Origin: a virus
Virus record (IMG/VR): IMGVR_UViG_3300032116_000062
Coordinates: 1 to 64,000 of that record
Direction: 5' to 3' (one strand)
DNA: 64,000 bases
Shown here: positions 4,806 through 63,792 of the stretch, one piece after another
Layout: every line of letters begins with the position of its first letter
Position numbering within the stretch: position 1 is the stretch's first letter
Notes under the pieces: model-generated
Databases searched by the model: none
The model's input: only the letters and a program-made list of their open reading frames with translations
What the model was told of the DNA's origin: nothing
Made by a program: the position numbers and the translations under genes

Positions 4806-5747
4806 ATGAATATAGGATATGCATGTATTAATATGACAATGGGTAAGCACGTAACAACAAATCGTGCAATGGTTAAAAAAACCTTCAATACCAAAGGATT
4901 GGATTATGTTTCCGAACTTGCACTTAAAAATTCGGCAGACATTATTAAGATTTTAGAATGGAATAGATTAAATGGTATCTATTTCTTCCGATTATCTTCT
5001 GCAATCATTCCGTGGGGTGACCATATTGATTTAACCCAACTTAAAGATTACAAACAAATTAAGAGAGAACTCAAAAAAGCAGGTGATTTTGCTAAATTTC
5101 ACAATATGCGTATTAATTCGCATCCTGGTCCTTTTTGTGTACTTACTTCACCAAATGAAACCGTTGTAAACAATACAATAGCAGATTTGGAACTACATGG
5201 TAAGATATTTGATATGATGGGGTTATCTAAAACACCATACAATAACATTAATATTCATTGTAATGGGGTTTATGGAGATAAAAAGAGTGCAATGGATAGA
5301 TTCATCACCAACTTCAATAAGTGTTCTAATTCGGTTAAAACGAGGCTTACAATTGAGAATGATGATAAAGGTTCTATGTACTCCGTTAAGGATTTGATGT
5401 ACATTTACGAAAGAACAGGTATCCCCATTGTATTCGATTACCATCATCATCAGTTTTGTACAGGTGACCTTTCAGAAGAACAGGCATTAAAGTTAGCAGC
5501 AACAACCTGGCCTGAAGGAATCACGCAGGAAGTACATTATTCAGAATCAAAAGCTTTGCATGAGAATGATAGCAAACAAAAACCACAAGCACACTCCGAT
5601 TATATTAATGTTCTCCCCAATACATACGGATTAGATTTGGATATTATGGTTGAAGCAAAAGCAAAAGAATTAGCAATACTACCATTCATAGGTAAACAAA
5701 ATATGTGTGAATATAGTGGATTAAAATCAGTAGAATCATACGTTTAA
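4806..5747 (+). CDS. uvdE: UV damage endonuclease (UvdE/UvsE family)
   Basis: 313 residues, the usual bacterial length. The start MNIGYACINMTM matches the family's GYAC-N opening. TIM-barrel metal-site segments follow: RLSSAIIPWG, RINSHPGPFCVL, NINIHCNGVYGDK, RLTIENDDKGSMY, VFDYHHHQFC and EVHYSES with the later AHSDY. The enzyme nicks DNA 5' to pyrimidine dimers and other photolesions, starting alternative excision repair. In a phage it would repair sunlight damage. It is led by its own host-like promoter and is not coupled to neighbours. Confidence 0.93.
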   Translation: MNIGYACINMTMGKHVTTNRAMVKKTFNTKGLDYVSELALKNSADIIKILEWNRLNGIYFFRLSSAIIPWGDHIDLTQLKDYKQIKRELKKAGDFAKFHNMRINSHPGPFCVLTSPNETVVNNTIADLELHGKIFDMMGLSKTPYNNINIHCNGVYGDKKSAMDRFITNFNKCSNSVKTRLTIENDDKGSMYSVKDLMYIYERTGIPIVFDYHHHQFCTGDLSEEQALKLAATTWPEGITQEVHYSESKALHENDSKQKPQAHSDYINVLPNTYGLDLDIMVEAKAKELAILPFIGKQNMCEYSGLKSVESYV

Positions 5748-8649: not shown

Positions 8650-10353
8650 ATGATACAATTAGGATTATCAGGATTCTACCACGATTCCGCCGCAGCATTG
8701 GTTATAGATGGAAAAGTAATAGCAGCAATAGAAGAAGAGAAACTATCGGGTATAAAGCACGATAGTTCTTTTCCGTTTAAAGCAATTCAATGGGTTTTGG
8801 AATATGCGCAAGTTACAATTGATGAAGTTGATATGGTTTGTTGGTATGAGGTTCCTGAAATAAAATTTAATCGAGTATATAAATCTTTATTTGGTGATTG
8901 GAAGGATTTTTTATTAGGAAAAGGTAGAAGAAATCGATTTATCAAAAGATGGAATTCAAATGAAGGTAATATAAAGGGTATATTGAATTCTATTGGTTAT
9001 GAGGGCGTTGTTGTTTATACAAAGCACCATCTATCTCATTTGGCTTTTTCTTATTACACATCCCCATTTAATGATGCTATAGGGTTATCCGTTGATGCGG
9101 TGGGTGAAGATGAAACTCTTTTAGCCTGTTATATTAGAGATAATAATTTTCATAAAATTACAAATTTAAAATTTCCAAATTCATTAGGATTGGTATATTC
9201 CGCATTAACCGCATATTTAGGATTCAAACCAAATGAAGGTGAATATAAAGTTATGGGATTGGCTCCATACGGAGATAAAAAGAAATACGAATATGTATTT
9301 GATAAAATAACATTTTATGATAGAGTGTTAGATTTAATAAACATAAATCAAAAATATTTTACATATCAAACATCAGAAGTCGATATGTTTAATTCTAAAC
9401 TTATAGAATTAATTGGATTTCTTCCCAGATTTAAAGATGAACCGATAGAACAGCATCATAAGGATTTGGCAGCTGCACTTCAGAGTTGGTACGAATCTCA
9501 ATTTTATTTTATATTAAATAGAGTAAATAGTAATTGGAATAGTGATAATTTAGTGTTGGCTGGTGGTTGTGCATATAATGGTACGGCTAATGGTAAAATA
9601 AAACACCACACTACTTTCAAAAATGTTTGGATTCCATTCGCACCATCCGATGCCGGATCTGCAATAGGATCGTGTTTATATCATTGGCATATAACATTGG
9701 GCAATCCAAAAGTAGTTGGGGGAGATAATCAAACACCATTTACAGGTCCGGAATATACGGAAGAAGAAATATTAAACGCACTCGGAAAGGTTTCGGATTT
9801 AAATATAATAATCATGAAGGATGAATCGGAGTTACGTTCATCTGTTGCAAAGTTAATAAAAGATGGTAATATCATTGGGTGGTTTAGAGGTAGGACTGAA
9901 TTTGGTGCGAGGGCATTGGGAAATCGTTCTATTTTAGGAAATCCACATCTTCCAGATATTAGAGATAGAATTAATAAGGTTGTCAAAAAGAGAGAAATGT
10001 TTAGACCATTTGCACCATCGGTAACACATGAGGATTATAAAAAATATTTCAAATCCGAAGAGGATGTTCCATATATGAATCAAGTTGTGCAAGTTATTTC
10101 ACAAACACCGATTCCATCGGTAACACACGTTGATAATTCGGCAAGAATACAGACGGTCAAAAGAGAGCAGAATCCACTATATTATGATTTATTAAAAGAA
10201 TTTGAAAAGATAACAGGAACACCAATCCTATTAAACACATCATTTAATTTAAAGGATTATACTATGGTAAATTCTCCTGAACAAGCCATATGGACATTTA
10301 AAAATTCTGATATGGATTATTTGGTATTGGGTAACTTTTTGATTAGTAAATAA
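8650..10353 (+). CDS. Carbamoyltransferase (NodU/CmcH family)
   Basis: 567 residues, full length. The N-terminal ASKHA-type domain opens with GLSGFYHDSAAALV and has the HHLSH motif (H126-H130), then LAGGCAYNGTANGKI and APSDAGSAIGS. The C-terminal domain starts around GWFRGRTEFGARALGNRSIL and continues with MFRPFAPSV. The family transfers carbamoyl from carbamoyl phosphate (via carbamoyl-AMP) to sugar hydroxyls or antibiotics. Phage versions are known, but their substrates are mostly unproven. With the glycan locus in the same genome, a sugar is the likely acceptor (inference). Confidence 0.93.
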   Translation: MIQLGLSGFYHDSAAALVIDGKVIAAIEEEKLSGIKHDSSFPFKAIQWVLEYAQVTIDEVDMVCWYEVPEIKFNRVYKSLFGDWKDFLLGKGRRNRFIKRWNSNEGNIKGILNSIGYEGVVVYTKHHLSHLAFSYYTSPFNDAIGLSVDAVGEDETLLACYIRDNNFHKITNLKFPNSLGLVYSALTAYLGFKPNEGEYKVMGLAPYGDKKKYEYVFDKITFYDRVLDLININQKYFTYQTSEVDMFNSKLIELIGFLPRFKDEPIEQHHKDLAAALQSWYESQFYFILNRVNSNWNSDNLVLAGGCAYNGTANGKIKHHTTFKNVWIPFAPSDAGSAIGSCLYHWHITLGNPKVVGGDNQTPFTGPEYTEEEILNALGKVSDLNIIIMKDESELRSSVAKLIKDGNIIGWFRGRTEFGARALGNRSILGNPHLPDIRDRINKVVKKREMFRPFAPSVTHEDYKKYFKSEEDVPYMNQVVQVISQTPIPSVTHVDNSARIQTVKREQNPLYYDLLKEFEKITGTPILLNTSFNLKDYTMVNSPEQAIWTFKNSDMDYLVLGNFLISK

Positions 10354-41002: not shown

Positions 41003-41212
41003 ATGGCAGTCACTAAAAAAAATGAAGAAAGAGATCAAGAAATTTTACTCCTTGAAACCAGAAAAGTAAAGGCTTTAGAAAAAATAGCCAATTCATTGGA
41101 TGCGTTGACGATTTGGTTTGAAGAAATCGAAAAAGATGAATGGAGTGAAAGACTTCAATGGTATCTTTATGAATGGCATTCTAAAAAAATTGCAGGAGAT
41201 AAAGAAAAATAA
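41003..41212 (+). CDS. Small charged hypothetical protein
   Basis: 69 residues, helical and charged: ETRKVKALEKIANSLDALTIWFEEIEKDEWSERLQWYLYEW (split), ending in lysines. It is led by a host-like promoter and overlaps the GT7-like gene by one base. No family recognised. First gene of the unit, so it may be an early regulator or accessory factor. Confidence 0.65.
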   Translation: MAVTKKNEERDQEILLLETRKVKALEKIANSLDALTIWFEEIEKDEWSERLQWYLYEWHSKKIAGDKEK

Positions 41213-42642
41213 TGCAAAAACAAAAATTAGGAATAATTGTTCCCTATCGTAATAGGGGTGAACACTTGTCTCAATTTTTGTTGACGATAAAAAAATATTT
41301 ATCGAACACCGATATAAAGTATGAACTAATAATAGTAGAACAAGCGGATGATAAACCTTTTAATAGAGGAAAACTACTAAATATAGGTGTAAAAAAAGCA
41401 ATTGAATTTGGATGCAAGTATGTAGCTCTACATGATGTGGATATGTTGCCCATTGATGTAGATTATTCTTATGTCCATAGACCTACACATTTAGCTACAA
41501 AATTTATTTCTGATAATACTGAAAAAAATATAGTATTTGATGAGTACTTTGGTGGTGTAACTTTATTCCCTATAAATGAGTATTTAAAAATAAATGGATA
41601 CTCTAATGAGTATTGGGGATGGGGGTATGAAGATGATGATTTGCTTTTTAGATGTAAAGAAAATTCTTTAGAATTAGATACAAAATATTATCCTGTAAAA
41701 ACACGTAATACGGCTGGATTATATTTTAACGGAAAAGATAGTTATATAACATGTCCAAAACCATTTGGATTGGATAACTATACAGTATTCGCATCCTTCG
41801 AACCTGATGAAATAAAGTGTGATGAAAATTATGAGTTTGATGAATATGTGGTATTTTCTATACCAGGATATGATACAACGATAACATATAATTCATTTAA
41901 AAGATATAAATTTGAAACTTGGTCAAAATCAAAAAATGTATTTAGTTTAAAATCTAGCATTGCACCAAAATTAAGAACAGTCATAGCGGTCACAGTAAAC
42001 CAATACGATAGGATAATAAAACTATACCAAGATGGTGTATTGGTCGATTCCCTAGAAATAGATTCAAAGGAAAGATTAATGCCTTACTTTAATCAGGAGT
42101 TTTTTTATATAGGAAAAACCACTACATCCGAATTTAATAGTAGACGACCATTCAAAGGAACAATAGATTACTTTGCAATATTTAATCACAGTTTAGAAGA
42201 AGCGCAGATAAAAGAAATATCAAATAATAGATATATGGGCCTGACTGATAACTATGGTGATTATATTACTTCACATTGTTTGGAAGTTTGTTATGACATG
42301 AAGATAAGTAAAAAAGATAAATTGATAGATTTATCTTCAAATAATAATGATGCTATTATAAATAATTGTGAAAGAGTTCCTGTTGTTGATATTGATATGA
42401 TAACGGAAATAAAGATTCCTTGGAGAAAAGCCGGAACTTTTAAATTATTACCACATAAGGAAAATGGATTTTTTGAAAACAAATGGACATTTACCGAAAC
42501 AAGAAAAAATCAAATAAAATTTTATAACGATGTGTTGGGAGGAAAAACAAACTGGAGAAGAGATGGAATGGATACATTGAATTATAAAGAAATAAGTTAT
42601 ACAGACATGAAAGATTACCACTATTTATCAGTATCATTATGA
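41212..42642 (+). CDS. GT7 (beta-4-galactosyltransferase)-like enzyme with inserted LamG domain
   Basis: 476 residues. GT7 motifs in order: VPYRNR (10-15), FNRGKLLN (50-57), HDVDMLP (74-80, DxD metal site), YFGG near 113, and WGWGYEDDD (135-143). A LamG/concanavalin-like domain of about 240 residues follows (TAGLYFNGKDSYITC, FEPDE, KLYQDGVLVDSL, GTIDYFAIFNHSL). After it comes what looks like the GT7 C-terminal segment (RKNQIKFYNDVLGG, RRDGMDTLNYKE). The lectin fold is thus inserted inside the catalytic domain. Expected to transfer Gal or GalNAc-like sugars. A tandem paralogue follows with a four-base overlap. Confidence 0.8.
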   Translation: MQKQKLGIIVPYRNRGEHLSQFLLTIKKYLSNTDIKYELIIVEQADDKPFNRGKLLNIGVKKAIEFGCKYVALHDVDMLPIDVDYSYVHRPTHLATKFISDNTEKNIVFDEYFGGVTLFPINEYLKINGYSNEYWGWGYEDDDLLFRCKENSLELDTKYYPVKTRNTAGLYFNGKDSYITCPKPFGLDNYTVFASFEPDEIKCDENYEFDEYVVFSIPGYDTTITYNSFKRYKFETWSKSKNVFSLKSSIAPKLRTVIAVTVNQYDRIIKLYQDGVLVDSLEIDSKERLMPYFNQEFFYIGKTTTSEFNSRRPFKGTIDYFAIFNHSLEEAQIKEISNNRYMGLTDNYGDYITSHCLEVCYDMKISKKDKLIDLSSNNNDAIINNCERVPVVDIDMITEIKIPWRKAGTFKLLPHKENGFFENKWTFTETRKNQIKFYNDVLGGKTNWRRDGMDTLNYKEISYTDMKDYHYLSVSL

Positions 42643-44106: not shown

Positions 44107-45525
44107 ATGGCAGAAAGTAAAATAATAAAAGGTGAAAATCCACTATATGTTCAAGTAAAAAATGAATTAGATTCTGTGGGAAAGGGAATGTGTTTAGCAA
44201 AATGGACACAAGTAACAATGCAACTACAAAGTGGCCACAACCACTCATGCCATCACCCAACCACACACAAAATTTCAGAAGTAGAGATAGCACGAAACCC
44301 ATCAGCATTACATAATACTAGATTTAAAAAACTAAAAAGAAAAGAGATGTTAAGTGGCCAAAGACCGGCCGAATGTGAATATTGTTGGAACGTGGAAGAT
44401 AATTCTGATAGATTTTCTGATAGAGTTTTTAAATCATCAGAGAGTTGGAGTTGGGAGCACAAAGAAGAAATTTTCAATTCTGATTGGAGAGATGATTATA
44501 ATCCAAAGTATGTAGAAGTTGCATTTAGTAATACTTGCAATTTTAAGTGTTCTTATTGTGGCCCTTCTTTTAGTACCACTTGGATGGAAGAAATAGAGCA
44601 ATATGGTGGATATCCTACATCTGATAATTTTAATGATATAACATGGATGGTTAGAGAAAATAAAATGCCAATACCACAAAGGGAACATAATCCATACGTT
44701 GAAGCATTTTGGAAATGGTGGCCGGAACTATATCACAATCTACATACATTCAGAATAACAGGCGGAGAACCTTTATTATCTAAAGATACTTGGAGAGTAT
44801 TAGATTATATTATTAGTGAAAAAAATCCAAATAAAAATCTTAAGTTAGCAATCAATTCGAATTTGGGAGTACCGGATGCTCTGATTGATAAACTAATTGA
44901 AAAAATTAAAAAAATAGAAGATGAAGGTAGAGTTAAAGAATTGATTTTATTTACATCTGCCGACACGTGGGGAGAGCAGGCAGAGTACATAAGAACGGGA
45001 TTGGAGTTCAATCGTTTTTGGGATAACATTAATAAAATATTATTGAATTGCCCAAAGATAGTTATAACATTTATGGTAACATACAATGCCTTATCTGTAT
45101 TTAAATACGATAAACTAATAAAAGAAATTTACAAATTAAAAGAAACCTACGCAAGTCCTTATCGGTATTGGAACTCTGCAACGTTTTTAGATTCATCATA
45201 TTTGAGATATCCGATGCATCAGACCGTGCAAGTATTACCACATCAATTTGCAGAAAATATAATGAATCAAGCAAAACTTGCAACATTCTTTTCTACACCA
45301 TCTTTCAATTCAACGCAAATTGGTTATAGTGATGTAGAAGTTCAAAAAATAAAAAGAATTTATGATTGGATGTTAGCACCGCAAGATGCTGAACAGCAAA
45401 TGAAAAATAGACATAACTTTTATAAATATTTTAGTGAACATGATAGGCGTAGAGGAACCGACTTTTGCAAAACATTTCCTGAATTAGAAGAATTTTATAA
45501 TTTCTGTTCAACAATTACAATATGA
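44107..45525 (+). CDS. Radical SAM protein (twitch-type)
   Basis: 472 residues. The 4Fe-4S/SAM motif is C144-x3-C148-x2-C151 (NTCNFKCSYCG), with ITGGEPLL near 216-223. An N-terminal cysteine/histidine-rich region (HNHSCHHPTTHK; ECEYCWNVEDN) may bind a second cluster. The family resembles phage-encoded twitch-domain radical SAM proteins of unknown substrate. Within this operon, dehydrogenation, epimerisation or methylation of a sugar or peptide is possible. It overlaps the next gene by four bases. Confidence 0.82.
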   Translation: MAESKIIKGENPLYVQVKNELDSVGKGMCLAKWTQVTMQLQSGHNHSCHHPTTHKISEVEIARNPSALHNTRFKKLKRKEMLSGQRPAECEYCWNVEDNSDRFSDRVFKSSESWSWEHKEEIFNSDWRDDYNPKYVEVAFSNTCNFKCSYCGPSFSTTWMEEIEQYGGYPTSDNFNDITWMVRENKMPIPQREHNPYVEAFWKWWPELYHNLHTFRITGGEPLLSKDTWRVLDYIISEKNPNKNLKLAINSNLGVPDALIDKLIEKIKKIEDEGRVKELILFTSADTWGEQAEYIRTGLEFNRFWDNINKILLNCPKIVITFMVTYNALSVFKYDKLIKEIYKLKETYASPYRYWNSATFLDSSYLRYPMHQTVQVLPHQFAENIMNQAKLATFFSTPSFNSTQIGYSDVEVQKIKRIYDWMLAPQDAEQQMKNRHNFYKYFSEHDRRRGTDFCKTFPELEEFYNFCSTITI

Positions 45526-51414: not shown

Positions 51415-52192
51415 AAAAAGATTTTTTGCATTTGGGTGTAGTTACACTTCACACATATGTGGAACATGGGCAGATTACATATCTTCTAATTTTGAAGAAT
51501 ATTATAATTTTGCCAGAGGTGGTGCGTGTAATTCATATATAATGAATAAATTTATTGAGGCAGATGCTAAATATAAATTTAATCCAGAAACCGATTATGT
51601 TGTAGTAATGTTTACAAATTTTAATAGATTTTCTTATTATGATAAAGTTGGTTGGAACCTATATGGTAGTGTTTATCAAAATGATACTTATCCCGAAGAT
51701 TTTAGAAACAAAATGTGGTCTGAAGATTGGGGAATTTATAATTCTTGGGTAGCTATAAATGTTGTAAAACAATTGTTAAGATATAAAGCAATTGATAATA
51801 AATTATTATTAGCAATAGATAGTATTTACTATAAAGAATCCCCATTTGATGATACACTCACCAACGCATTATCTACAAGATTTGTAGATAATATATACAA
51901 CCTACTATCGGATTCGGAATCACTTGATAGTTGGAAATCAAAACGATATAAATTTCCTGAAGATTATGATTTGTATATACAACAGGAATATACCGATGGA
52001 CATCCAACACAGTTGATGCATTATGAGTTTATGAAAGAAAAGTTTCCACAATTTGATACCGAAGAATCAAAAAATACTTTTGAATTTTTGGAATCAATCA
52101 AAGATTTATCTTCTTGGCATAATCAACAACAATCCTACAACTTAAATTTTTATCAATTAAAAAACAAAGCATACGGTGCACCCCTATTTTAA
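51398..52192 (+). CDS. SGNH hydrolase-like protein, copy 3
   Basis: 264 residues. Block I is degenerate: FAFGCSYTSHICGTWADYI (GCS instead of GDS; the serine is kept). Block II is NFARGGACNSY. Block V is DGHPTQLMHYEFMKE, with D and H in the expected order. It overlaps copy 2 by 17 bases. Cysteine in place of aspartate after the glycine is shared with copy 4. Confidence 0.65.
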   Translation: MDGLNKKRFFAFGCSYTSHICGTWADYISSNFEEYYNFARGGACNSYIMNKFIEADAKYKFNPETDYVVVMFTNFNRFSYYDKVGWNLYGSVYQNDTYPEDFRNKMWSEDWGIYNSWVAINVVKQLLRYKAIDNKLLLAIDSIYYKESPFDDTLTNALSTRFVDNIYNLLSDSESLDSWKSKRYKFPEDYDLYIQQEYTDGHPTQLMHYEFMKEKFPQFDTEESKNTFEFLESIKDLSSWHNQQQSYNLNFYQLKNKAYGAPLF

Positions 52193-52193
52193 T

Positions 52194-53624
52194 ATGAACA
52201 AATATAAATTAAATTTTGTTTTTGATTATTTTTTTCCAAGTTTTATTTTACCAAATGCAACAATGCCGGAAATTGGTATCATAAACTATTTAGCATCAAT
52301 ACATACAAATAAATCACAAAACGCAACTTTTTTCGAACAGCAGATGCCAGTATCTGCCATCTTTGGTGATAAGTTTGGAGGAATGCCAAATTCAGGAACT
52401 GGATACTTCTATCAAGCAGGTGTATATAAATCAATGTTGGAATATTCTCAACGGCCACTATACAATAATAATAATGGACATGAAAAATTTATTTATCCCA
52501 TAAAACCAAATCCTGTATTGAGTGATTTTATTGGGGTATCTCAATCCATAGGAAGTAGAATGAGTGGAGAATTTTTCTGGAAGTACATTTCAGCACAGGC
52601 CATTGAACTGATAATGGATAGGCAGGGTATTATATTTATAGATTATTCTATGGAACCCTTCATTGATAAATATCTACACGATGCATTCCATGACTCTTTA
52701 AGAAATAGTGGAATTCCAAAAGAATCGATTATAGTGTGTGTAAATAGTTTTAATGCTAGAGAGTGCTATGAAAAATATTATACGGAAGAACAAAGAATGT
52801 ACTCTGTTAGAAATCTTCCATTTTGTTTGGACCATAGTTCTTGGTATTATAACGATGAACTGGAAAGAAATACAGGAAAGTGTATGAATGAAAGTGATTT
52901 TTTAAATACAAAAGATACTATAAGAAAAAACCATTTTTTAATGAAAATTAGAAATGGGAGAGAACATAGAATTGCATTTTTATATAAGATGGCAAGTGAG
53001 GGATTATTGGAAAATGGCGATTTTTCTTTTTTAGCACCAAATGGAACACAATATTCAAAAGATACTGTCGAATTTGTTATAGAAAGGTACGGAATAAAAA
53101 ATGTAAATTTAAAAAATATAAAAACATTACATGAAACCGCACCACATATTTTACAAAGTGAAAGAGGAATAACGTATGGAGATATCAATGCATGGACGGA
53201 TTCACATTATCAACCACATATTAATTCATATTTTGAAATATGTTTTGAAACATTTGTACATGGAGATCACAAATCTCTAACAGAAAAAGTTTTCAAACCA
53301 ATAATAAATTTTCAACCTTTCTTTTTTGTAGCTTATCCGGGTGCATTAGAACTTTTACAAAATTTAGGATTTAAAACGTTTGATGGGTTTATAGATGAAA
53401 GGTATGATAAAATTCAAAATATAAATGAAAGATTGGAAGCAATATTTTTAGAAGTAAAAAGATTATGTTCAATGAGTAAGGAAGAAATGCATGAATGGTA
53501 TTGGAAAATGGAAGATATTCTAATTCATAATCATAGAACCTTAATAAACTACCATAAAAATAAATTATTTGCAGAAGATTTGGTTAAAGAATTTTACGAT
53601 AGAACTCACAACAATCTTATTTAA
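52194..53624 (+). CDS. Glycosyltransferase-like protein (GT10-like C-terminus)
   Basis: 476 residues from the ATG at 52194, one base after the previous stop; an upstream in-frame GTG at 52176 would overlap that gene and is less likely. The C-terminal third has SLTEKVFKPIINFQPFFFVAYPGALELLQNLGFKTFDGF (split, about 360-400), the donor-site pattern of GT10-like and viral GT-B transferases (EK-x-F-KP-I...P-F). The N-terminal part is not recognised. Confidence 0.6.
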   Translation: MNKYKLNFVFDYFFPSFILPNATMPEIGIINYLASIHTNKSQNATFFEQQMPVSAIFGDKFGGMPNSGTGYFYQAGVYKSMLEYSQRPLYNNNNGHEKFIYPIKPNPVLSDFIGVSQSIGSRMSGEFFWKYISAQAIELIMDRQGIIFIDYSMEPFIDKYLHDAFHDSLRNSGIPKESIIVCVNSFNARECYEKYYTEEQRMYSVRNLPFCLDHSSWYYNDELERNTGKCMNESDFLNTKDTIRKNHFLMKIRNGREHRIAFLYKMASEGLLENGDFSFLAPNGTQYSKDTVEFVIERYGIKNVNLKNIKTLHETAPHILQSERGITYGDINAWTDSHYQPHINSYFEICFETFVHGDHKSLTEKVFKPIINFQPFFFVAYPGALELLQNLGFKTFDGFIDERYDKIQNINERLEAIFLEVKRLCSMSKEEMHEWYWKMEDILIHNHRTLINYHKNKLFAEDLVKEFYDRTHNNLI

Positions 53625-55357: not shown

Positions 55358-57277
55358 ATGAAAACAGTTATAAAACCTTGGGGAAAGGAAGAATGGTTAG
55401 AATTAAACGACCGATATTGTTACAAACGAATTTACATTAATGCCGGATATAAGACATCATATCAGTATCATAATTTTAAAAAAGAAACAAATTATATCAT
55501 TTCGGGCGAAGCAGAAGTGTGGCTTGAAAATGATGAGGGTGTTGTTGAAAAAAAATTAATGAAGGCGGGTGATTACTTTAATGTAACACCACCAAAAAAG
55601 CACAGAGTAATTGCATTAACTGATATTATTTTACAAGAAGTATCAACGCCTGAAGTTGATGATGTCATTAGAATTAATGATGAGTTTGCAAGGGGTGATG
55701 GTAAAATAGAAGGTGAACACCAAACACCCGCTGTATTAATATTGGCAGCAGGTTTGGGTACCCGTTTGGAATCTCTTACAAAAGAAATTAATAAAGCACT
55801 TTTACCAATTAACAATCGTGCAATCATTTCACATATTATTGATAAGTTTCCAAAAGATTATGAATTTGTAGTAGCAATTGGATATAAGGGTGAATTGGTT
55901 AAAGAGTATTGTAAATTAGTATTTCCCAATCATAAATTTACGTTTGTGGAAATCGATAACATTGAAGAATCAGGATCAGGCCCAGGATATTCCGCATTAA
56001 AATGTAGAGAGTATTTGCAAAGACCTTTTTATATTACCACTTGCGATTGTTTGATAGATTCTCCAATGCCACATTTGGATGGTAATTGGTTGGGAGTACA
56101 ACCAACTTCTTATCCAGAAAAATATTCAACGGTATTGGTAGATGGAGATAATATTATAAATTATTCAAACAAATCCATACATGGATATAATTTGGCATTC
56201 ATTGGGCTGGCTGGTATATGGGATTACGAAGTATTTTGGAATAAATTAGAAAGTAGAACCATCAATGGAGAGTTAGTATCGGCGTTTGAAGCACCATTAG
56301 ATTATCCTACGTTTAAAATAAAAAAATTAAAATGGTTGGATACAGGTAACATAGATGATTTAAATAAAGCAAAACAATACTTTAACGATGTACCATTATC
56401 ATTACAAAAAGATAATAACGAACTAACATACAGAGAAGGTAATTTATTTATCAAATTTACACCCGATCCAGAGGTATTAAAAAATAGAATTAAAAGAGCA
56501 ATTCTATTGAAAGAGCAAATACCTTTAAACTTTGGATCCGTTTCAAATTTCATTTATTACGATTGGGTAGATGGTGATACTTTATACGAATTGGATGATT
56601 TTAATCTATTTAAACGATTTCTAAACAAAATGGAAAATAATTTAAAAGAGATTACAGATAATTCCATTGAACATATAATAAATTTTTATATAAATAAAAC
56701 ACATAGTAGAGTACAAAAATTTGTAAATAAAAATGGACATCAATATCACACCTTACCGCATATTATAAATGGAAAAGAATATCCGGCATATGATTCTTTT
56801 TTTACAGATGTTGTAAATAATAGGTTTCATAAATTTCAAAGTAATTCTTTTTATAAAAAATTTCATGGAGACCTTCAATTTGACAATATCATTTTTTCTT
56901 CAAAAGAAAATGAATTCAAATATATTGATTGGAGAGAATCTTTTGGAGGATATACGGAGGCCGGAGATATTTACTATGATTTAGCAAAACTATATGGTGG
57001 GTGTATAATTCCGTATAATAAAATGAAAAATGAAGATAATATAAACTTTGTAGAATGTGATTGTTCTATAAGATATTCATATGATATTTCCGATAATTTG
57101 GTTTCCTTTAAAAAGGAATTTGAAAATTGGATTATCAAAATGGGATTTGATATGGATAAAGTAAAAATTATGACAGGTTTAATATTTTTAAACATGTCAC
57201 CACTACATGATGAAAAGTTTTCAAAAATGCTATGGTTCAAATCAATTGAAATTCTATATGAGTACGCAGATAAATAA
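55358..57277 (+). CDS. Triple fusion: cupin + sugar nucleotidyltransferase + kinase-like
   Basis: 639 residues. Residues 1-110 are a cupin like the C-terminal domain of mannose-6-phosphate isomerases (KPWGKEEWLE, YKTSYQYHN, NYIISGEAEVWL). Residues about 124-345 are a sugar-phosphate nucleotidyltransferase (VLILAAGLGTRL, NKALLPI, TTCDCLID). Residues about 370-639 are an aminoglycoside/choline-kinase-like domain (KFHGDLQFDNIIF near 501-513, then YIDWRES and DIYYDLAKLYGG, the metal-binding DFG equivalent being IDW). One protein could therefore phosphorylate and activate a small alcohol or sugar. Confidence 0.85.
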   Translation: MKTVIKPWGKEEWLELNDRYCYKRIYINAGYKTSYQYHNFKKETNYIISGEAEVWLENDEGVVEKKLMKAGDYFNVTPPKKHRVIALTDIILQEVSTPEVDDVIRINDEFARGDGKIEGEHQTPAVLILAAGLGTRLESLTKEINKALLPINNRAIISHIIDKFPKDYEFVVAIGYKGELVKEYCKLVFPNHKFTFVEIDNIEESGSGPGYSALKCREYLQRPFYITTCDCLIDSPMPHLDGNWLGVQPTSYPEKYSTVLVDGDNIINYSNKSIHGYNLAFIGLAGIWDYEVFWNKLESRTINGELVSAFEAPLDYPTFKIKKLKWLDTGNIDDLNKAKQYFNDVPLSLQKDNNELTYREGNLFIKFTPDPEVLKNRIKRAILLKEQIPLNFGSVSNFIYYDWVDGDTLYELDDFNLFKRFLNKMENNLKEITDNSIEHIINFYINKTHSRVQKFVNKNGHQYHTLPHIINGKEYPAYDSFFTDVVNNRFHKFQSNSFYKKFHGDLQFDNIIFSSKENEFKYIDWRESFGGYTEAGDIYYDLAKLYGGCIIPYNKMKNEDNINFVECDCSIRYSYDISDNLVSFKKEFENWIIKMGFDMDKVKIMTGLIFLNMSPLHDEKFSKMLWFKSIEILYEYADK

Positions 57278-57899
57278 AGATACAAAAATATACGGATCAT
57301 TTTCTAAAACACCCGGAAATAATGGGTGTTTGTTTTTCAATGCTGCATTTGAAAAGTATAATATAAATGCTATATATAAATCTTTTTATTCTGATAACAT
57401 AAAAGAAACCATACAATCCGTCAGACATTTGGGATTTAGTGGTTTTGCATTGAGCATGCCACATAAAGTTGATGTAATACCTTATTTGGATTATATGGAT
57501 GATATATCTAAAGAAATAGGTGCGGTTAATACTGTGATAAATGTGGAAGGTAAACTTACAGGATATAACACAGATTTTTTTGGAATTGTTGATTTTTTTT
57601 CTTATATTAACGTAGGAAAAAATGTAAATATAATTGGAAATGGTGGTTTTAGTAAAGCAATACAATGTGCTTGTAAAAATATGAATATAGAATATAAAAT
57701 ATTTGGAAGAAATGATATAGATAATATATCTTCGATACTGAATGAAACTTTTATAAACGCTACTCCAATTGAAATAAAATCAATTTATAGTAGGGTAATA
57801 GATTTAAGACCACATACACATTATGGAAAAATAGTTGCCGAAATGCAAGCAAAATATCAATTTAAAATATACACAGGAATAGAATATGGCACTACCTAA
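57258..57899 (+). CDS. Shikimate dehydrogenase-like protein (AroE family)
   Basis: 214 residues from the ATG at 57258; the longer in-frame reading from 57207 lies deep in the previous gene and is rejected. AroE pattern: SFSKTPGNNGCLFNA-like opening (KTP in place of HSxSP), GFSGFALSMPHKVDVIPYLD with the catalytic Lys (PHK), IGAVNTVIN and GYNTDFFG (catalytic Asp), then NIIGNGGFSKAI as the NAD(P) loop. About 55 residues shorter than AroE. It may oxidise a quinate-, shikimate- or inositol-like polyol. Overlaps the fusion gene by 20 bases. Confidence 0.82.
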   Translation: MSTQINKDTKIYGSFSKTPGNNGCLFFNAAFEKYNINAIYKSFYSDNIKETIQSVRHLGFSGFALSMPHKVDVIPYLDYMDDISKEIGAVNTVINVEGKLTGYNTDFFGIVDFFSYINVGKNVNIIGNGGFSKAIQCACKNMNIEYKIFGRNDIDNISSILNETFINATPIEIKSIYSRVIDLRPHTHYGKIVAEMQAKYQFKIYTGIEYGTT

Positions 57900-58854
57900 T
57901 TACTACATATGCCCAATGTCCAAAAATATAGTAGATTCTGTAATAGAAATGGAAAACTCTGCTTTTGGATTACTACCAACTCGCAGACAGATAGACTGGG
58001 ATGGTGGATATGTAAATGGTTGGAATACTAAAAGTTTTTATGAGTATGTAAAAACTAAAAATAAAAATCTTATAATAGAAAGAGATCATTCCGGCCCAAA
58101 CCAAGGAGTGAATGAGGATAGTGGGTATGTAAGTCATACTCATGATGCAAATTATTTTGATATAATACATTTAGACCCATGGAAAATTGCAAAAAATCAT
58201 ATTGATGGCATAGAAAAAACTGTTTATGCTTTAAAATACATTCATCACCTAAATCCAAATGTTAAGTTTGAAATATTGACGGAAGAGGCGATATGGAAAT
58301 TTACGGATGAAGAAATAATAGATATAATGCAATATCTACTAAATAACTTATCCAAATCGGAGTTCGATAGTATCGAATATATTGTAGTACAATCGGGAGT
58401 AGGATTGGATTTGGTTAATAGAAAAAATACAGGAAAATTTGATTTAGAAAAGTTAAAAAAACAATCCTTTTTAATAAAATCATTTGGTAAAAAAACAAAA
58501 GAACATAATGGTGATTATTTGAACCATAATGAATTGGGAATTCGATTTTCAAATGGATTGGATTGTATAAATATAGGACCTGAAATAGTGCAGTTAGAAA
58601 CTCTAACTTATTTAGAAAATATGACCGAAAAACAAATAGATGAATTTTATGAAATATGCCTAAATTCAAGAAAATGGAAAAGATGGGTCCCATCTGATTT
58701 TGATTTTTCGGATAAGAAAAAACTAATACAAGTTTGTGGGCATTATTGTTTTAATCTATACGAATTACCAAAAATAGATGATTTAATAAAAGAAAATATT
58801 AAAATAAAATTAAAAAATTTACCATCATGTCAAAAATCTTCGCGTTTGATTTAG
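57886..58854 (+). CDS. TIM-barrel protein resembling KbaZ/GatZ aldolase subunits
   Basis: 322 residues. NYYICPMSKNIVDSVIEM at the start, GLLPTRRQIDWDGGYVNGW, NLIIERDHSGPNQG (about 60-75) and FDIIHLDPWKIAK follow the KbaZ/GatZ layout (R/G-D-H-x-G-P-N, I-H-L-D). EILTEEAIW and IEYIVVQSGVG are further barrel strands. KbaZ/GatZ are the partner subunits of tagatose-bisphosphate aldolase. No class II catalytic subunit is seen here. It could be a carbohydrate aldolase or a different TIM-barrel lyase. Overlaps both neighbours. Confidence 0.55.
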   Translation: MALPNYYICPMSKNIVDSVIEMENSAFGLLPTRRQIDWDGGYVNGWNTKSFYEYVKTKNKNLIIERDHSGPNQGVNEDSGYVSHTHDANYFDIIHLDPWKIAKNHIDGIEKTVYALKYIHHLNPNVKFEILTEEAIWKFTDEEIIDIMQYLLNNLSKSEFDSIEYIVVQSGVGLDLVNRKNTGKFDLEKLKKQSFLIKSFGKKTKEHNGDYLNHNELGIRFSNGLDCINIGPEIVQLETLTYLENMTEKQIDEFYEICLNSRKWKRWVPSDFDFSDKKKLIQVCGHYCFNLYELPKIDDLIKENIKIKLKNLPSCQKSSRLI

Positions 58855-59186
58855 ATGATACTTTGTGTTATAGACCAAAGGATGTTGAACATTTGGGTGG
58901 AGATAAATACCACCATTGTAAACCAATAAAAGAAATGATAGACCTATCTAATAGTTTATATGATAAAGGTCACACTATATATATTTATACGGCTCGTGGT
59001 ATGAAAACATTTGATGGCGATGTAAAGTTAATATATGAAAAACTATATGATTTAACTTTAAAGTGTTTGGATGAGTGGGGTGTAAGACATCATGGATTAT
59101 TTATGGGTAAAATTCATTATGATTTACTTATAGATGATAAAGCAATGGATTTGGAAACAGCAAAAAAAGAATTAATAAAAATATGA
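58827..59186 (+). CDS. HAD-superfamily phosphatase (capsule-biosynthesis type)
   Basis: 119 residues. HAD motif I is FAFDLDDTLC (D8-x-D10), motif II IYIYTARG (Thr), and motif IV LLIDDKAMD, with a lysine before it (GKIHYD). The small C0-type, capless fold matches phosphatases in sugar-nucleotide clusters. It would remove phosphate from a sugar phosphate intermediate. Overlaps the previous gene by 28 bases and the next by four. Confidence 0.85.
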   Translation: MSKIFAFDLDDTLCYRPKDVEHLGGDKYHHCKPIKEMIDLSNSLYDKGHTIYIYTARGMKTFDGDVKLIYEKLYDLTLKCLDEWGVRHHGLFMGKIHYDLLIDDKAMDLETAKKELIKI

Positions 59187-60154
59187 AAGTCCTAATTACA
59201 GGAGGTGCAGGTTATCTGGGTTCTGTTATTGTCGGAAAATTATTAGAATACGGATACGATGTGGTTGTTTTGGATAAATTACTATTTAACCAAACATCAT
59301 TACTTCAATATACATCGAATCCAAATTTTAAATTTATTTATGGAGATGTTCGTAATCAAATAGAATTAGAAAGATTATGTAATGAATCTGACATAATTAT
59401 TCCATTGGCAGCAATTGTTGGATTTCCGGCATGTGCATCTGATCCTAAATTGGCAAAAGAAATTAATTACGATCAGATTGTTAATATTGTAAAATATACA
59501 ATTGGAAAAGGTAAAAAAATATTATATCCAAATACAAATAGTGGATATGGTATTGCAGAAGGTCAATCCGAGTGTACCGAAGAATCACCACTTACACCAA
59601 TATCAGTATACGGACAAACAAAATGTGATGCAGAGAATTTTTTAAGAGTATCAACGGATGCAATTATTTTTAGATTAGCAACGGTTTTTGGAGTATCACC
59701 AAGAATGAGAACGGATTTATTGGTAAATGATTTTACTTACAAAGCGATAACGGATAAGTACATAGTAGTATTCGAAAAATCATTCAAGAGAAATTTTATT
59801 CATATAGAAGATGTTGCATCTGCATTTTTATATATGATACAAAATTATGATAAATATAAATCCCAAGTTTTTAATGTAGGTTTGAGTACTGCAAATCTAT
59901 CAAAGCAGGAGTTATTAGAGAAGATTCAGGCCCATGTAAACGACTTTGCAGTATCTTATAATGATTACTACGAAGACCCGGATAAAAGAGATTATATCGT
60001 TTCTAACGCAAAAATAGAATCGACAGGTTGGAAACCAATGTGGGATTTGGATATGGGAATTAAACAATTGATTCAGGGGTATCAAATGATAGTTCCCAAA
60101 ATGGGAGCAGAATTCAGAAATGGATTCCCATTGGGTTACGCAAATAAAACATAA
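59183..60154 (+). CDS. NAD-dependent epimerase/dehydratase (SDR) 1
   Basis: 323 residues. NAD loop GGAGYLG (7-13), acidic VVVLDK after the second strand, IIPLAAIVG, NTNSGYG (serine), and the catalytic SVYGQTK (Y-x-x-x-K). C-terminal FIHIEDVASAF and VFNVGL are typical of extended SDRs acting on nucleotide sugars. Specificity (UDP, GDP, dTDP or CDP) is not readable. Followed one base later by RmlC. Confidence 0.9.
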   Translation: MKVLITGGAGYLGSVIVGKLLEYGYDVVVLDKLLFNQTSLLQYTSNPNFKFIYGDVRNQIELERLCNESDIIIPLAAIVGFPACASDPKLAKEINYDQIVNIVKYTIGKGKKILYPNTNSGYGIAEGQSECTEESPLTPISVYGQTKCDAENFLRVSTDAIIFRLATVFGVSPRMRTDLLVNDFTYKAITDKYIVVFEKSFKRNFIHIEDVASAFLYMIQNYDKYKSQVFNVGLSTANLSKQELLEKIQAHVNDFAVSYNDYYEDPDKRDYIVSNAKIESTGWKPMWDLDMGIKQLIQGYQMIVPKMGAEFRNGFPLGYANKT

Positions 60155-60155
60155 T

Positions 60156-60710
60156 ATGAGTTATAAAGACAAAAAATGGAATGATATTGAGGTATCATTC
60201 TTAAAACCATTTGCATGTGAAGTGCCTGTATTTTCACCATCCGTTTACAGAGAGTATAGAGGGGAAATATGGACAACATACCATAGTGAAATACATCCTG
60301 TTATGGATTACATACACTATGATAAGGAAGAAATCAACATTCACGGTAGATTTTCCAAATCATACAAAGGTGTGTTGCGAGGATTGCATTGGGATACAAA
60401 GACTTGGAAATTAGTACAAGCTTTAGTTGGTGATATATTTTTGGTTGTATTGGATATGAGAAAAGATTCACCTACATATGGTGATTGGAATTCATTTTTA
60501 TTAACAGAAAAAACTAGAGACCAAGTTTTAGTTCCTCCTGGATTTGCAAATGGACATTACGCATTAACCGATTGTGTATTTCATTATAACTTATTTTATA
60601 AAGGAGATTTTGTTGAAGAAAATGCACAAAATGTGGTTAAGTGGAACGATCCAGAATATCAAATCGAATGGCCAACCGATAAACCAATATTACAAAAAAG
60701 AGACAGATGA
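60156..60710 (+). CDS. rmlC: dTDP-4-dehydrorhamnose 3,5-epimerase-like (RmlC)
   Basis: 184 residues from the ATG at 60156, one base after the SDR stop; an upstream in-frame ATG at 60120 lies inside that gene and is less likely. RmlC signature: YKGVLRGLHWDTKTWKLVQALVGDIFLVVLDMR with the catalytic His (RGLHW), then VLVPPGFANGHYALTDCVFHYN with the second His/Tyr pair. The fold is a cupin. The enzyme epimerises C3/C5 of 4-keto-6-deoxy nucleotide sugars. It overlaps the E1-alpha-like gene by four bases. Confidence 0.9.
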   Translation: MSYKDKKWNDIEVSFLKPFACEVPVFSPSVYREYRGEIWTTYHSEIHPVMDYIHYDKEEINIHGRFSKSYKGVLRGLHWDTKTWKLVQALVGDIFLVVLDMRKDSPTYGDWNSFLLTEKTRDQVLVPPGFANGHYALTDCVFHYNLFYKGDFVEENAQNVVKWNDPEYQIEWPTDKPILQKRDR

Positions 60711-61336
60711 TAAAAAATTTAGAAAAATATCCAGTAGTAAGAGAATCAGAGTATACAGTCGATTCTCTTATTGATTTTGAAAATTTAATAGTAAAGCACT
60801 GGGAGACCGGAAAAATAAAAGGACCCGTACACCTATCAAACGGAAATGAAGAACCACTTATTGAAATATTTAAAAGAATAAAAAAATCGGATTGGGTTTT
60901 TAGTACTTGGCGTTCACATTATCATATACTACTGAAAGGAGTATCTCAATCGTGGATAGAAGAACAAATTGTTAAAGGAAAATCCATTACATTGTGCAAT
61001 ATTGATGAGAAGTTTTACGCATCTGCAATTGTAGGTGCAACTCTTTCAATTGCATTAGGAACGGCACTATCTATTAAAAGGTCAGGTGGTGATGATAAAG
61101 TTTGGGTATTTGTTGGAGATATGAGTTTTGAAAGCGGTATTTTTTATGAGGTTCATAAATACGCTAGAAACTTCGACCTTCCTTTGTATTTTGTAGTAGA
61201 AGATAATGGTGTTTCAACGTACACACCAACCGAAGTAACATGGAATGTAAAACGTGAAATTCCTGAAGATGTAATTTGGTATGATTATAAATCAAAATAT
61301 CCACATTATGGAAGTGGAAAATGGATAGCATTTTAA
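60707..61336 (+). CDS. Thiamine-diphosphate enzyme, E1-alpha-like (PP domain only)
   Basis: 209 residues. It follows the E1 alpha layout: GPVHLSNGNEEPLIEIF, DWVFSTWRSHYHILLKGV, SAIVGATLSIALGTAL, then the TPP motif VGDMSFESGIF (G137-D138) ending about 27 residues later in VEDNG (usual NN replaced by DN). Family proteins are about 330-360 residues; this one stops shortly after the TPP motif. The matching beta-like half is at 63250, with two SDR genes between them. Confidence 0.8.
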   Translation: MIKNLEKYPVVRESEYTVDSLIDFENLIVKHWETGKIKGPVHLSNGNEEPLIEIFKRIKKSDWVFSTWRSHYHILLKGVSQSWIEEQIVKGKSITLCNIDEKFYASAIVGATLSIALGTALSIKRSGGDDKVWVFVGDMSFESGIFYEVHKYARNFDLPLYFVVEDNGVSTYTPTEVTWNVKREIPEDVIWYDYKSKYPHYGSGKWIAF

Positions 61337-61338
61337 TT

Positions 61339-62271
61339 ATGAAAAAAGTATTAATAACAGGATGTAGTGGATTGGTAGGAATCCATTTGGTAAAAAAGTG
61401 TTTGGATAAAGGATATGCTGTTGTTGGTGTGGATATTAGATATTCCGATAGTTTACCAATTTCAGATAATTTTACCTTTTACCAACTAGATTTAACAATC
61501 GAAGATAACATAAAAAACCTTTTCTTTTTTGAAACCCCTGATGTAGTTTTTAATGCATTCGGTGTAAAAGGTTCACCAATGAGAGCAAAAAATAATCCAG
61601 TTGATTTTTTATATCCATCTTTTAAAATCAATACGGAAATTATTAACCAATGTGCTAAAAACAATATTTGGTTGGTTTTTGTTAGTTCGGTTGGAGTATA
61701 TGCACCGGCGGAAAAGTTTGAAGAAGAATCCGTTTGGAAAACATTACCATCCAATGCCGATTGGTTTCCTGCATGGAGTAAACGAATGGGTGAGTTACTT
61801 TTACAATCATACGAAGTACAAACTGGATATAATAAATGGTCTATTATAAGGCCTGCAAACATATTCGGGGAATATGATGATTTTAGTGGAAACGGAACGG
61901 TCATAGCATCTACCATAAAAAAAGTTTATGATGCAACCGATTCCATCGAAGCTTGGGGTGATGGATCACCTATTAGAGATTTTGTTTATGCCGGAGATGT
62001 CGCGGATGCGATTATAGATTTGTATCAATATCAGTATCACACTACTATAAATTTTGGATGTGGAGAAGAGATAACCATCAAAGAAATTATAGAAATGGTT
62101 GTAGAAATTAGTGGTAAAAAAATTGATATAAATTGGGATACATCTAAACCAAACGGAGATAAAAGACGACAGATGGATATAACAAAACAAACAAAATATA
62201 AGATTTTACCAAAAATGGGGATAAAAGAAGGAATTAAAAAAACATATAAATTTTATGAAAAAAACAGATAA
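61339..62271 (+). CDS. NAD-dependent epimerase/dehydratase (SDR) 2
   Basis: 310 residues from the ATG at 61339, two bases after the upstream stop; an in-frame ATG at 61321 would overlap that gene. NAD loop GCSGLVG, VVGVDIR, VFNAFG and VFVSSVGVY are normal. At the usual YxxxK position the sequence reads PAWSK (WFPAWSKRMGELL), so the catalytic Tyr is absent. Similarity to GDP-fucose-synthase-like SDRs is suggested by this WSKRMGE segment. FVYAGDVADAI follows. Overlaps SDR 3 by 17 bases. Confidence 0.85.
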   Translation: MKKVLITGCSGLVGIHLVKKCLDKGYAVVGVDIRYSDSLPISDNFTFYQLDLTIEDNIKNLFFFETPDVVFNAFGVKGSPMRAKNNPVDFLYPSFKINTEIINQCAKNNIWLVFVSSVGVYAPAEKFEEESVWKTLPSNADWFPAWSKRMGELLLQSYEVQTGYNKWSIIRPANIFGEYDDFSGNGTVIASTIKKVYDATDSIEAWGDGSPIRDFVYAGDVADAIIDLYQYQYHTTINFGCGEEITIKEIIEMVVEISGKKIDINWDTSKPNGDKRRQMDITKQTKYKILPKMGIKEGIKKTYKFYEKNR

Positions 62272-63250
62272 AATATTAGTAACGGGAGCAAGTGGATTTA
62301 TAGGATCCAGATTACTTAAATCATTAATAGAAGCAGGATATACGAATATTAGAGCAGTTACCTATAAAAGAAATTTAACTAATGATATCCCAAATATAGA
62401 AGGTAATTTTGAACATTATAAGGGAGATTTGACAGATGCTAAATTTTGTGAAATAGTATCGAAAGAGGTGGATGTTGTTTTTCATTGTGCGGCAAATACC
62501 ACAAATGCATTGGATACAAAAGTAAATCCATTATTACATGTAACTCAAAATGTAGAAATGAATGTAAATCTAATGGAACAATCTTGGAAAAATAATGTTC
62601 GTAAGTTTATGTTCATATCATCAAATACGGTTTATCCAAATATAGGTAGTGAGTATTGTACTGAAGATATGGAAGTACAAACACCGAATATATATCCGGC
62701 ATATAAAGCAGTTGGTAATATGAAACGATACGGAGAAACACTTTGTGATTTCCTATCCAATCATATTCATAATCCAATGCAATGTATCATCATCAGACCT
62801 TCCAATGCGTATGGTCCAAATGATAAATACGATTACGAAAAATGCCACGTTACTCCTGCAAACATTCGTAAGGTAGCAGATGGGTTAAATCCAATACCTG
62901 TTTGGGGTGATGGAAGTGAGATTAGAGATATTATTCATGTAGATGATATGGTAAGTGGATTTATTTGCGTAGCAGAAAACGTAGATAAATACGATGTTTA
63001 TAATGTGTGTTATGGTAGAGGATATTCGGTAAATGAAGTACTAAATACCATAAAAGAGATTGAACAAAATTCTAACCCAATCGAATATGTTAGTAATAAG
63101 GCACCAATGATACCTGTTAGACTACTTTCGAATGATAAACTTCTTAAATTGGGATGGAAACCGAAGTACGATTTAAAAACAGGATTAAAAGATGCACTAA
63201 ATTGGTATAAAGCAAACAAACATTTATTTAACCCAAATTCAAAACCATAA
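62255..63250 (+). CDS. NAD-dependent epimerase/dehydratase (SDR) 3
   Basis: 331 residues. NAD loop GASGFIG, FHCAANTTN, FISSNTVYPN. The lysine of the active site sits in AVGNMKRYGE, where the residue four before the lysine is Val instead of Tyr. IIHVDDMVSGF and VYNVCYG close the domain. As with SDR 2, the catalytic Tyr is lost or moved. The last base of its stop is the first base of the next ATG. It sits between the two halves of the TPP enzyme with SDR 2. Confidence 0.85.
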   Translation: MKKTDKILVTGASGFIGSRLLKSLIEAGYTNIRAVTYKRNLTNDIPNIEGNFEHYKGDLTDAKFCEIVSKEVDVVFHCAANTTNALDTKVNPLLHVTQNVEMNVNLMEQSWKNNVRKFMFISSNTVYPNIGSEYCTEDMEVQTPNIYPAYKAVGNMKRYGETLCDFLSNHIHNPMQCIIIRPSNAYGPNDKYDYEKCHVTPANIRKVADGLNPIPVWGDGSEIRDIIHVDDMVSGFICVAENVDKYDVYNVCYGRGYSVNEVLNTIKEIEQNSNPIEYVSNKAPMIPVRLLSNDKLLKLGWKPKYDLKTGLKDALNWYKANKHLFNPNSKP

Positions 63251-63792
63251 TGAGTAAGCCGGAATATACACCATATAAAGATGCATTATCAAATGCAATG
63301 AAATTATTAGGAGAAAAAGATGATACTATATTTATAGGACAGCAGATAGTTTATGCTGGCAATCCTATGAGTACAACGTTAGGAGATGTATCGAAGGAAA
63401 AAATGGTAGAACTACCTGTTATGGAAGAAACCCAAATGGGAATGAGTTTGGGAATAGCAATGACACAAAAAACGGTTATTACATTTTATCCTCGCTGGGA
63501 TTTTATAATATGTGCAGCAAATCAATTGATAAATCATATTGATAAATACGAATTGATGACAGGAAAAAAAGCAAATATACTTATTAGATTAGGAAAAGGT
63601 TCGGATAAACCATTAGATCCTGGACATCAGCACAAAGGAAATTATTTTGAAGAATTTAAATCTATGTGTAAAAATATAACCTTCCACAATTTAGAAAAGT
63701 GGGAAGATATAGAACCTGCATACGAACTCGCATACCAAACGGGTGGAGTACATTGTTTAGTTGAATATCCAGAATTATACTATAAAAATTAA
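63250..63792 (+). CDS. Thiamine-diphosphate enzyme, E1-beta-like (Pyr domain only)
   Basis: 180 residues. TIFIGQQIVYAGNP at about 27-40, VELPVMEETQMGMSLGIAM with the catalytic Glu that activates thiamine, TFYPRWDFIICAANQLINHIDKY, and LIRLGKGSDKPLDPGHQH are typical of the Pyr domain of E1 beta and transketolases. The C-terminal transketolase_C domain (about 130 residues) is missing. It would pair with the alpha-like subunit at 60707 to form a minimal two-chain TPP enzyme. Confidence 0.82.
   Translation: MSKPEYTPYKDALSNAMKLLGEKDDTIFIGQQIVYAGNPMSTTLGDVSKEKMVELPVMEETQMGMSLGIAMTQKTVITFYPRWDFIICAANQLINHIDKYELMTGKKANILIRLGKGSDKPLDPGHQHKGNYFEEFKSMCKNITFHNLEKWEDIEPAYELAYQTGGVHCLVEYPELYYKN

Follow-up and report, generated by a model that had tools for sequence, protein, structure and literature searches.

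Two minimal E1-like thiamine diphosphate subunits in a conserved sugar cassette of T4-like phages, with a possible role as a carboligase

Two short genes in a 64,000-nucleotide stretch of viral DNA (the window: positions 1 to 64,000 of IMG/VR record IMGVR_UViG_3300032116_000062, part of a 102-kb phage record) encode what are, judged by their sequence, the thiamine diphosphate (ThDP)-binding and pyrimidine domains of an E1-type enzyme. These halves, here called alpha and beta, form a real, constrained and obligate pair. The role we favour for it, with a probability of a little under one half (about 0.48), is that of an E2-independent carboligase that would add a 2-oxoacid-derived acyl unit to C4 of GDP-4-keto-heptose, as homology and analogy with sugar-branching enzymes suggest. 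An earlier note on this DNA had placed the four reading frames from alpha to beta exactly (alpha 209 aa, two short-chain dehydrogenase/reductases, SDRs, of 316 and 331 aa, beta 180 aa), all on the plus strand and with overlapping ends. Its remark that two SDR genes separate the halves is confirmed, and the SDR pair is a conserved part of the system. The note did not report that the halves form part of a conserved cassette of six genes, or that fused and adjacent versions exist. The cassette and its diagnostic sites are as follows:

59183..60154 (+): SDR1, 323 aa, homologue of a Cj1427-like GDP-heptose C4-dehydrogenase
60120..60710 (+): RmlC-like cupin, 196 aa, nearest to GDP-4-keto-heptose 3-/3,5-epimerases
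60707..61336 (+): alpha, E1-alpha-like half, ThDP/Mg-binding PP domain only, 209 aa, PF00676 7e-14
60911..60925 (+): R69-x-H71-x-H73 motif of alpha, at the site of the E1 'YRxH' residues
61115..61207 (+): Mg/ThDP motif of alpha, G137-D138 ... E165-D166-N167
61321..62271 (+): SDR2, GDP-fucose-synthase-like fold, 316 aa
61768-61770 (+): catalytic-tyrosine site of SDR2, here Pro150
62255..63250 (+): SDR3, second GDP-fucose-synthase-like SDR, 331 aa
62711-62713 (+): catalytic-tyrosine site of SDR3, here Val153
63250..63792 (+): beta, E1-beta-like half, pyrimidine domain only, 180 aa, PF02779 1.3e-5
63424..63426 (+): predicted catalytic glutamate Glu59 of beta (PVMEE)

Alpha aligns with positions 5-170 of the 300 in the Pfam E1_dh profile (PF00676, E 7e-14). 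Beta matches Transket_pyr (PF02779) at E 1.3e-5 and has no Transketolase_C match; its 25.4 bits fall just short of the Pfam cut-off of 27, so we built profiles from relatives. Among solved structures, the alpha family profile matches human pyruvate dehydrogenase (PDH) E1-alpha (2.3e-20, residues 44-211 of 365) and the beta profile human PDH E1-beta (6.7e-15, residues 14-188 of 341). The alignments end early, so that each subunit is about 150 residues shorter than a normal E1 subunit. Pfam and profile alignments thus agree with the first description of alpha as ending after the PP domain and of beta as having no transketolase C-terminal domain. The latter domain (PF02780) was not found above threshold in beta, in the 102-kb phage record that holds the window or in 11 related phage records, the sole sub-threshold match (17.6 bits) lying elsewhere in one of these 12 records, nor did they contain E2 catalytic (PF00198), lipoyl (PF00364) or E3-type dimerisation (PF02852) domains above cut-off. 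This rules out a PDH complex and bears out the idea of an E1-like ThDP enzyme of minimal size, with neither E2 nor E3. The C-terminal parts missing here include the E2-contacting regions of known E1s. With these regions gone and E2, lipoyl and E3 domains absent, an E2-independent reaction, by a ligase or a simple decarboxylase, is the natural inference.

The residues expected of such an active site are retained throughout the family. In alpha, G137, D138, E165, D166 and N167 are invariant in 102/102 unique homologues, and the motif that aligns with AYRAH of human E1-alpha keeps R69 and H71 in all 102 and H73 in 99. In beta, Glu59 and His128 are each kept in 109/109. Mutated ThDP or glutamate residues, which the earlier note had named as evidence against its proposal, are not seen. 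The median ratio of non-synonymous to synonymous substitution rates (dN/dS) is 0.11-0.12 across the 102 unique alphas and 109 unique betas, and a value of about 0.11 excludes pseudogene decay. The note had likewise named a pair unable to form the ThDP site; here a structural model of a fused relative (400 aa, from locus L018, 40-row alignment) points the other way, as it folds as a PP+PYR unit with a mean predicted local distance difference test score (pLDDT) of 90.2 and a predicted template modelling score (pTM) of 0.92. From end to end the model can be aligned with transketolase PP and PYR domains (best Z 20.8, root-mean-square deviation 3.9 A over 357 residues), which suggests that the two domains pack as in the E1/transketolase superfamily; it informs packing only and says nothing on the reaction. 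The best 50 structure matches listed no E1 chain, which does not exclude E1 as E1 halves are separate chains.

A scan of viral contigs gave several hundred alphas (at least 276 confirmed in one scan) and more than 100 betas. Exactly one beta accompanies alpha in 49/50 alpha-bearing phage contigs, the exception being a 41-kb fragment in which alpha lies close to the end. This conservation across loci excludes a one-off gene fission. Of 89 distinct pairs, 12 have alpha next to beta, most have them separated by a distance of 1 to 9 genes, and in five beta comes first; on cellular contigs from metagenome-assembled genomes (MAGs) the halves are mostly adjacent. Two cyanophages (S-SM2, P-TIM68) and three cell-binned contigs have both halves in a single gene, a form that the earlier note had proposed to look for; in PHROGs this fused form is phrog_34187, of unknown function. 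In the alpha tree, the 35 phage split rows form one clade (100/98), near cellular alphas of Verrucomicrobiota-, Parcubacteria- and Actinomycetota-binned contigs, while the fused and radical S-adenosylmethionine (SAM)-linked forms make up a second subfamily, separated from the first with full support.

The description of the system as a phage one stands as to origin: the terminase shares 54% identity with its counterpart in Flavobacterium phage immuto, portal- and capsid-like genes lie downstream, and the phage is T4-like. The terminase match suggests a Bacteroidota host without proving it. As to range, the description was too narrow, the family also occurring in sparse cellular genomes. Such carriers are rare: sampling 286 and 240 genomes from two phyla recovered only the starting genomes, and a plasmid search gave ordinary E1-alpha only. 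Some of the MAG contigs may themselves be viral. Our literature search found no paper describing a phage mini-E1 gene, and an ocean-virus survey of auxiliary metabolic genes left out contigs with sugar-gene islands (PMC11360552).

What the pair acts on is suggested by its companions. Neighbour clustering across loci gave six co-travelling genes (SDR1 in 112 loci, RmlC-like in 98, alpha in 138, SDR2 and SDR3 in 129 each, beta in 143), and their commonest order, SDR1-RmlC-alpha-SDR2-SDR3-beta, is that of the window. SDR1 matches PDB entry 6vo6, which we take to be Campylobacter jejuni Cj1427, with 354 bits (phmmer, 5.5e-105); its family profile reaches 485 bits with this entry and no other chain below 1e-30. 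The T/Y/K active site is intact, with T118, S120, Y143 and K147 invariant in 81/81. The RmlC-like protein has 7ani, 8dcl, 7m14 and 8dco as its best PDB matches (about 1e-35 to 1e-36), GDP-4-keto-heptose 3- and 3,5-epimerases as a group reaching about 1e-33 to 1e-36, with weaker scores to dTDP-sugar RmlC (about 4e-24), and its GLH and WND align with the C. jejuni epimerase 7ani, a cupin with catalytic His and Asp. In cellular mini-E1 loci of the window's subfamily, HddA-like and HddC-like genes are neighbours of the mini-E1, and single loci carry a GmhB-like or a GMD gene; HddA and HddC are the kinase and guanylyltransferase of GDP-heptose synthesis. Together, the cassette and its cellular neighbours narrow the likely acceptor to a GDP-4-keto-heptose. 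Cj1427 oxidises C4 of GDP-D-glycero-manno-heptose, with alpha-ketoglutarate recycling its bound NADH, and releases free GDP-4-keto-heptose (PMC10680097); its structure paper is cited in PMC7949155. RfbH/DegT-type proteins occur in L010-L012, and the C. jejuni dideoxyheptose pathways employ a C3-dehydratase dependent on pyridoxal phosphate (PMC10440746).

The two SDRs between the halves have the extended SDR fold with its NAD(P) glycine motif and are closest to E. coli GDP-fucose synthase (hmmsearch 3e-44 for SDR2, 1.7e-41 for SDR3); the SDR2 model (pLDDT 88) aligns to 1gfs with Z 35.8 and 1.7 A over 295 residues. In GDP-fucose synthase, C4 reduction depends on Ser107, Tyr136 and Lys140, whereas Cys109/His179 serve the epimerisation (PMC7949155). 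This Ser-Tyr-Lys triad is incomplete in both SDR2 and SDR3. Across 85 SDR2 homologues the tyrosine position holds Pro (70), Ala (13) or Gly (2) and never Tyr, with Ser122 and Lys154 in all. SDR3 has Val153, with Ser122, Tyr150, Lys157, Cys197 and His198, in 87/87; Val153 and Lys157 occupy the aligned positions of Tyr136 and Lys140 in GDP-fucose synthase, and the retained Cys-His pair (197-198) has its His at the place of His179. The YPAYK of SDR3 (residues 147-151) is rejected as a true YxxxK site, its Lys being present in only 39/87 homologues; the invariant Tyr150, three residues upstream of Val153, could still act. A Parcubacteria-binned contig (L010) carries the same Tyr-less pair alongside its mini-E1, and YxxxK is retained by ordinary reductases in L020, L011 and L018; the loss is thus confined to the SDRs that partner the mini-E1. 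On L010 (1576-3542), which may be cellular or a misbinned virus, the Tyr-less SDR2/SDR3 stand with one GMD-like and one DegT/RfbH-like gene and with E1 halves that adjoin each other.

We infer the reaction, its donor, the acceptor position, the order of steps, the product and its end use as follows. Alpha and beta would make up one ThDP enzyme, an E1 core of PP and PYR subunits, presumably alpha2-beta2. By homology, SDR1 would oxidise C4 of GDP-D-glycero-manno-heptose to a ketone, and the RmlC-like epimerase would set C3 and/or C5. The E1 pair would then decarboxylate a 2-oxo acid on ThDP and pass the acyl carbanion to the C4 carbonyl of the sugar instead of a lipoyl arm. The donor is not fixed by sequence: pyruvate is the usual one in the precedents (PMC4425429, PMC4753412, PMC10338323). 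SDR2 and SDR3 would process the adduct afterwards, probably non-reductively. A branched C4 leaves no ketone to reduce, which by our own reasoning would fit the lost reductive tyrosine; candidate chemistries are an aldol-type or isomerase step, or an epimerisation by the Cys-His pair of SDR3. This route would yield a GDP-heptose branched at C4 and meant for a phage-directed glycan; virion, DNA and host surface are candidate targets, and the sugar is probably attached by upstream glycosyltransferase-like genes such as the GT7-like one at 41212-42642. The more specific proposal, that a small E1-type carboligase builds a C4-branched higher sugar on GDP-heptose together with a Tyr-less SDR pair doing chemistry other than ketone reduction, as the permanent loss of the tyrosine would imply, is in our eyes distinctly tentative and rather to be doubted.

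The same catalytic residues and the same absence of E2 would also serve a non-oxidative 2-oxoacid decarboxylase that only frees an aldehyde for another enzyme, and in the fused subfamily a zinc-dependent alcohol dehydrogenase gene lies directly upstream. The phage cassette, however, has no conserved aldehyde-using gene, and its constant partners are sugar-nucleotide enzymes working on a 4-keto sugar, which leaves this option rather unlikely. We also judge unlikely a transketolase-like reaction that would move a two-carbon ketol from one sugar phosphate to another, for instance to feed the heptose precursor. Transketolases are the best structural matches of the fused relative, and heptose synthesis genes lie nearby in cellular and cyanophage loci, but this likeness of fold is common to the entire superfamily and is no indicator of function, both halves are far nearer PDH E1 than transketolase by sequence, and no sugar-phosphate ketose enzymes stand beside the phage cassette.

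A different starting point is the second subfamily, whose members in L014-L016 and L006 adjoin SPASM/twitch-like radical SAM genes and which the tree separates from the first with full support: the pair might make or use a radical-SAM-linked product, the SDR cassette being another use of the same activity. Members of the window's clade have no such neighbours by the pair (the window's own radical SAM gene, at 44107-45525, is 15 kb off), and L016 holds, by eye, a heptose-kinase-like gene, so that both contexts may be sugar pathways; we consider this improbable. Homology to PDH E1 would finally allow alpha and beta to act as decoys or hijackers, associating with the host's PDH or E2. Both subunits have lost their C-terminal parts, including the E2-contacting regions of known E1s, and the genes track the sugar cassette rather than host metabolism genes, which makes this the most improbable reading of all.

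Some observations weigh against the carboligase that we prefer. The second mini-E1 subfamily has zinc-dependent alcohol dehydrogenase or radical SAM neighbours, not SDR1/RmlC, and its role may therefore differ. Support for the fold stems from the model of the fused relative. No chemistry is assigned to SDR2/SDR3 without their Tyr, and the PDB title of 6vo6, our presumed Cj1427, is generic. A recognisable NTP_transferase is present in only 3/20 related phage records, so that most would depend on host GDP-heptose. Finally, Pau11/Pau12 of paulomycin biosynthesis, one of the precedents, measure 325/345 aa against 209/180 here and are likened to the pair by description and size.

Further genes of the window surround the cassette, two of them just upstream:

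58827..59186 (+): HAD-type sugar phosphatase-like gene adjoining the cassette; EcbF-BcbF 8e-8 (under cut-off), phrog_1238 6.9e-24
55358..57277 (+): fused protein, 639 aa, cupin/phosphomannose isomerase-like plus sugar-1-phosphate nucleotidyltransferase-like plus a third domain

The product of 55358..57277 matches MannoseP_isomer (2.7e-7), NTP_transferase (1e-6) and an HddC-like profile (39.5 bits), making a part in nucleoside diphosphate-sugar supply possible. Overlapping its end, 57207-57899 encodes a shikimate-dehydrogenase-type domain (Shikimate_dh_N 1.2e-16), odd for a phage sugar region. The gene at 52176-53624 belongs to a large and diverse phage family of about 450 aa (also clusters 6, 14, 16, 31, 34 and others in L021-L180), scattered through the same gene region and often found between E1-alpha and SDR2; it has no Pfam or PHROG match, and its members are possibly glycosyltransferases. 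Gene fusions in L022 (5214-6989), L028 (8623-10380) and L030-L032 join E1-beta with this family's domain (400 aa), a hint that both act together. A complete NodU/CmcH-type carbamoyltransferase (Carbam_trans_N and _C) lies at 8650-10353, and related ones directly follow E1-beta in L028, L131, L140 and L164. The radical SAM protein at 44107-45525 (472 aa) belongs to a family present upstream of the sugar cassette in 43 related loci. In the 735-kb phage LR756501 (L006:8379-10597), beta, a radical SAM gene and alpha are flanked by two methyltransferase-like genes that resemble sugar C-methyltransferases, another context for the same enzyme. We also noted a UV-endonuclease UvdE homologue at 4806-5747 (1.4e-66) and, in L022 (9908-12241), a phage protein with repeated Hint/intein-like domains.

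Should the carboligase reading be true, a pair of small catalytic domains would be enough for an E1 enzyme to act as a carboligase, offering a direct test of what makes an E1 form a carbon-carbon bond or hand its acyl unit to a lipoyl group. A pathway to a branched, nucleotide-activated heptose, perhaps one beyond the reach of the hosts, would be encoded by many uncultured T4-like phages, and phage glycan chemistry would be tied to that of the C2-branched sugars found in antibiotics and in O-antigens. The Tyr-less SDR pair would then represent a new active site in a much-studied enzyme superfamily, and the cassette enzymes might be useful for making branched higher sugars.

Among known systems, ComDE sulfopyruvate decarboxylase is likewise built of two short subunits, each with a single ThDP domain. 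The resemblance in size, pointed out in the earlier note, stands; a common lineage does not, as beta is a transketolase/E1 pyrimidine domain that matches Transket_pyr with no TPP_enzyme_N match, and ComDE belongs to a different branch of ThDP enzymes (alpha scores 19.7 against TPP_enzyme_C, below the cut-off of 21.9). The E1s of PDH and branched-chain 2-oxoacid dehydrogenases share sequence superfamily, motif and domain order with the pair but have the approximately 150 C-terminal residues that each window subunit is missing; E2, lipoyl and E3-type domains are likewise absent here. The cyanophage 'transketolase central region-containing protein' (SSM2_198 in S-SM2, also in P-TIM68; phrog_34187) has PP and PYR domains like those of the pair and is likewise encoded within a sugar cluster of a phage; here the domains are fused (402 aa in S-SM2), at 38-41% (alpha) and 29-35% (beta) identity, and their loci have zinc-dependent alcohol dehydrogenase and heptose-kinase-like neighbours, with no SDR2/SDR3 pair seen. 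The C. jejuni heptose pathway of Cj1427, Cj1430 and Cj1428 parallels the cassette, SDR1 resembling Cj1427, the RmlC-like protein the Cj1430 type and SDR2/SDR3 the Cj1428/GDP-fucose synthase fold (PMC10680097), yet no ThDP step is described there and its C4-reductases keep the Ser-Tyr-Lys triad that SDR2/SDR3 do not.

Closest in proposed chemistry are enzymes that branch 4-keto sugars. YerE of yersiniose biosynthesis adds a C2 branch to C4 of a nucleotide 4-keto sugar with ThDP, as cited in PMC4753412; it is a single flavoprotein of the acetolactate-synthase type, with another architecture. AviB1/AviB2 (avilamycin), Pau11/Pau12 (paulomycin) and EvdU5/EvdS3 (everninomicin) are two-subunit PDH-E1-like ThDP proteins in sugar clusters, proposed to add a C2 (acetyl) branch to C4-keto sugars (PMC4425429, PMC4753412, PMC10338323). 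With the AviB1/AviB2 type the window pair shares an E1 alpha/beta-like pair, a nucleotide-sugar cluster and the absence of E2, and the two-carbon branch suggested in the earlier note would have its precedent, by analogy, in AviB1/AviB2 and Pau11/Pau12. These systems differ in belonging to actinobacterial antibiotic clusters and in acting on hexose or pentose acceptors, some after glycosyl transfer. Compared with them, the pair described here is found in phages, is much smaller, and is apparently directed at a heptose and coupled to Tyr-less SDRs.

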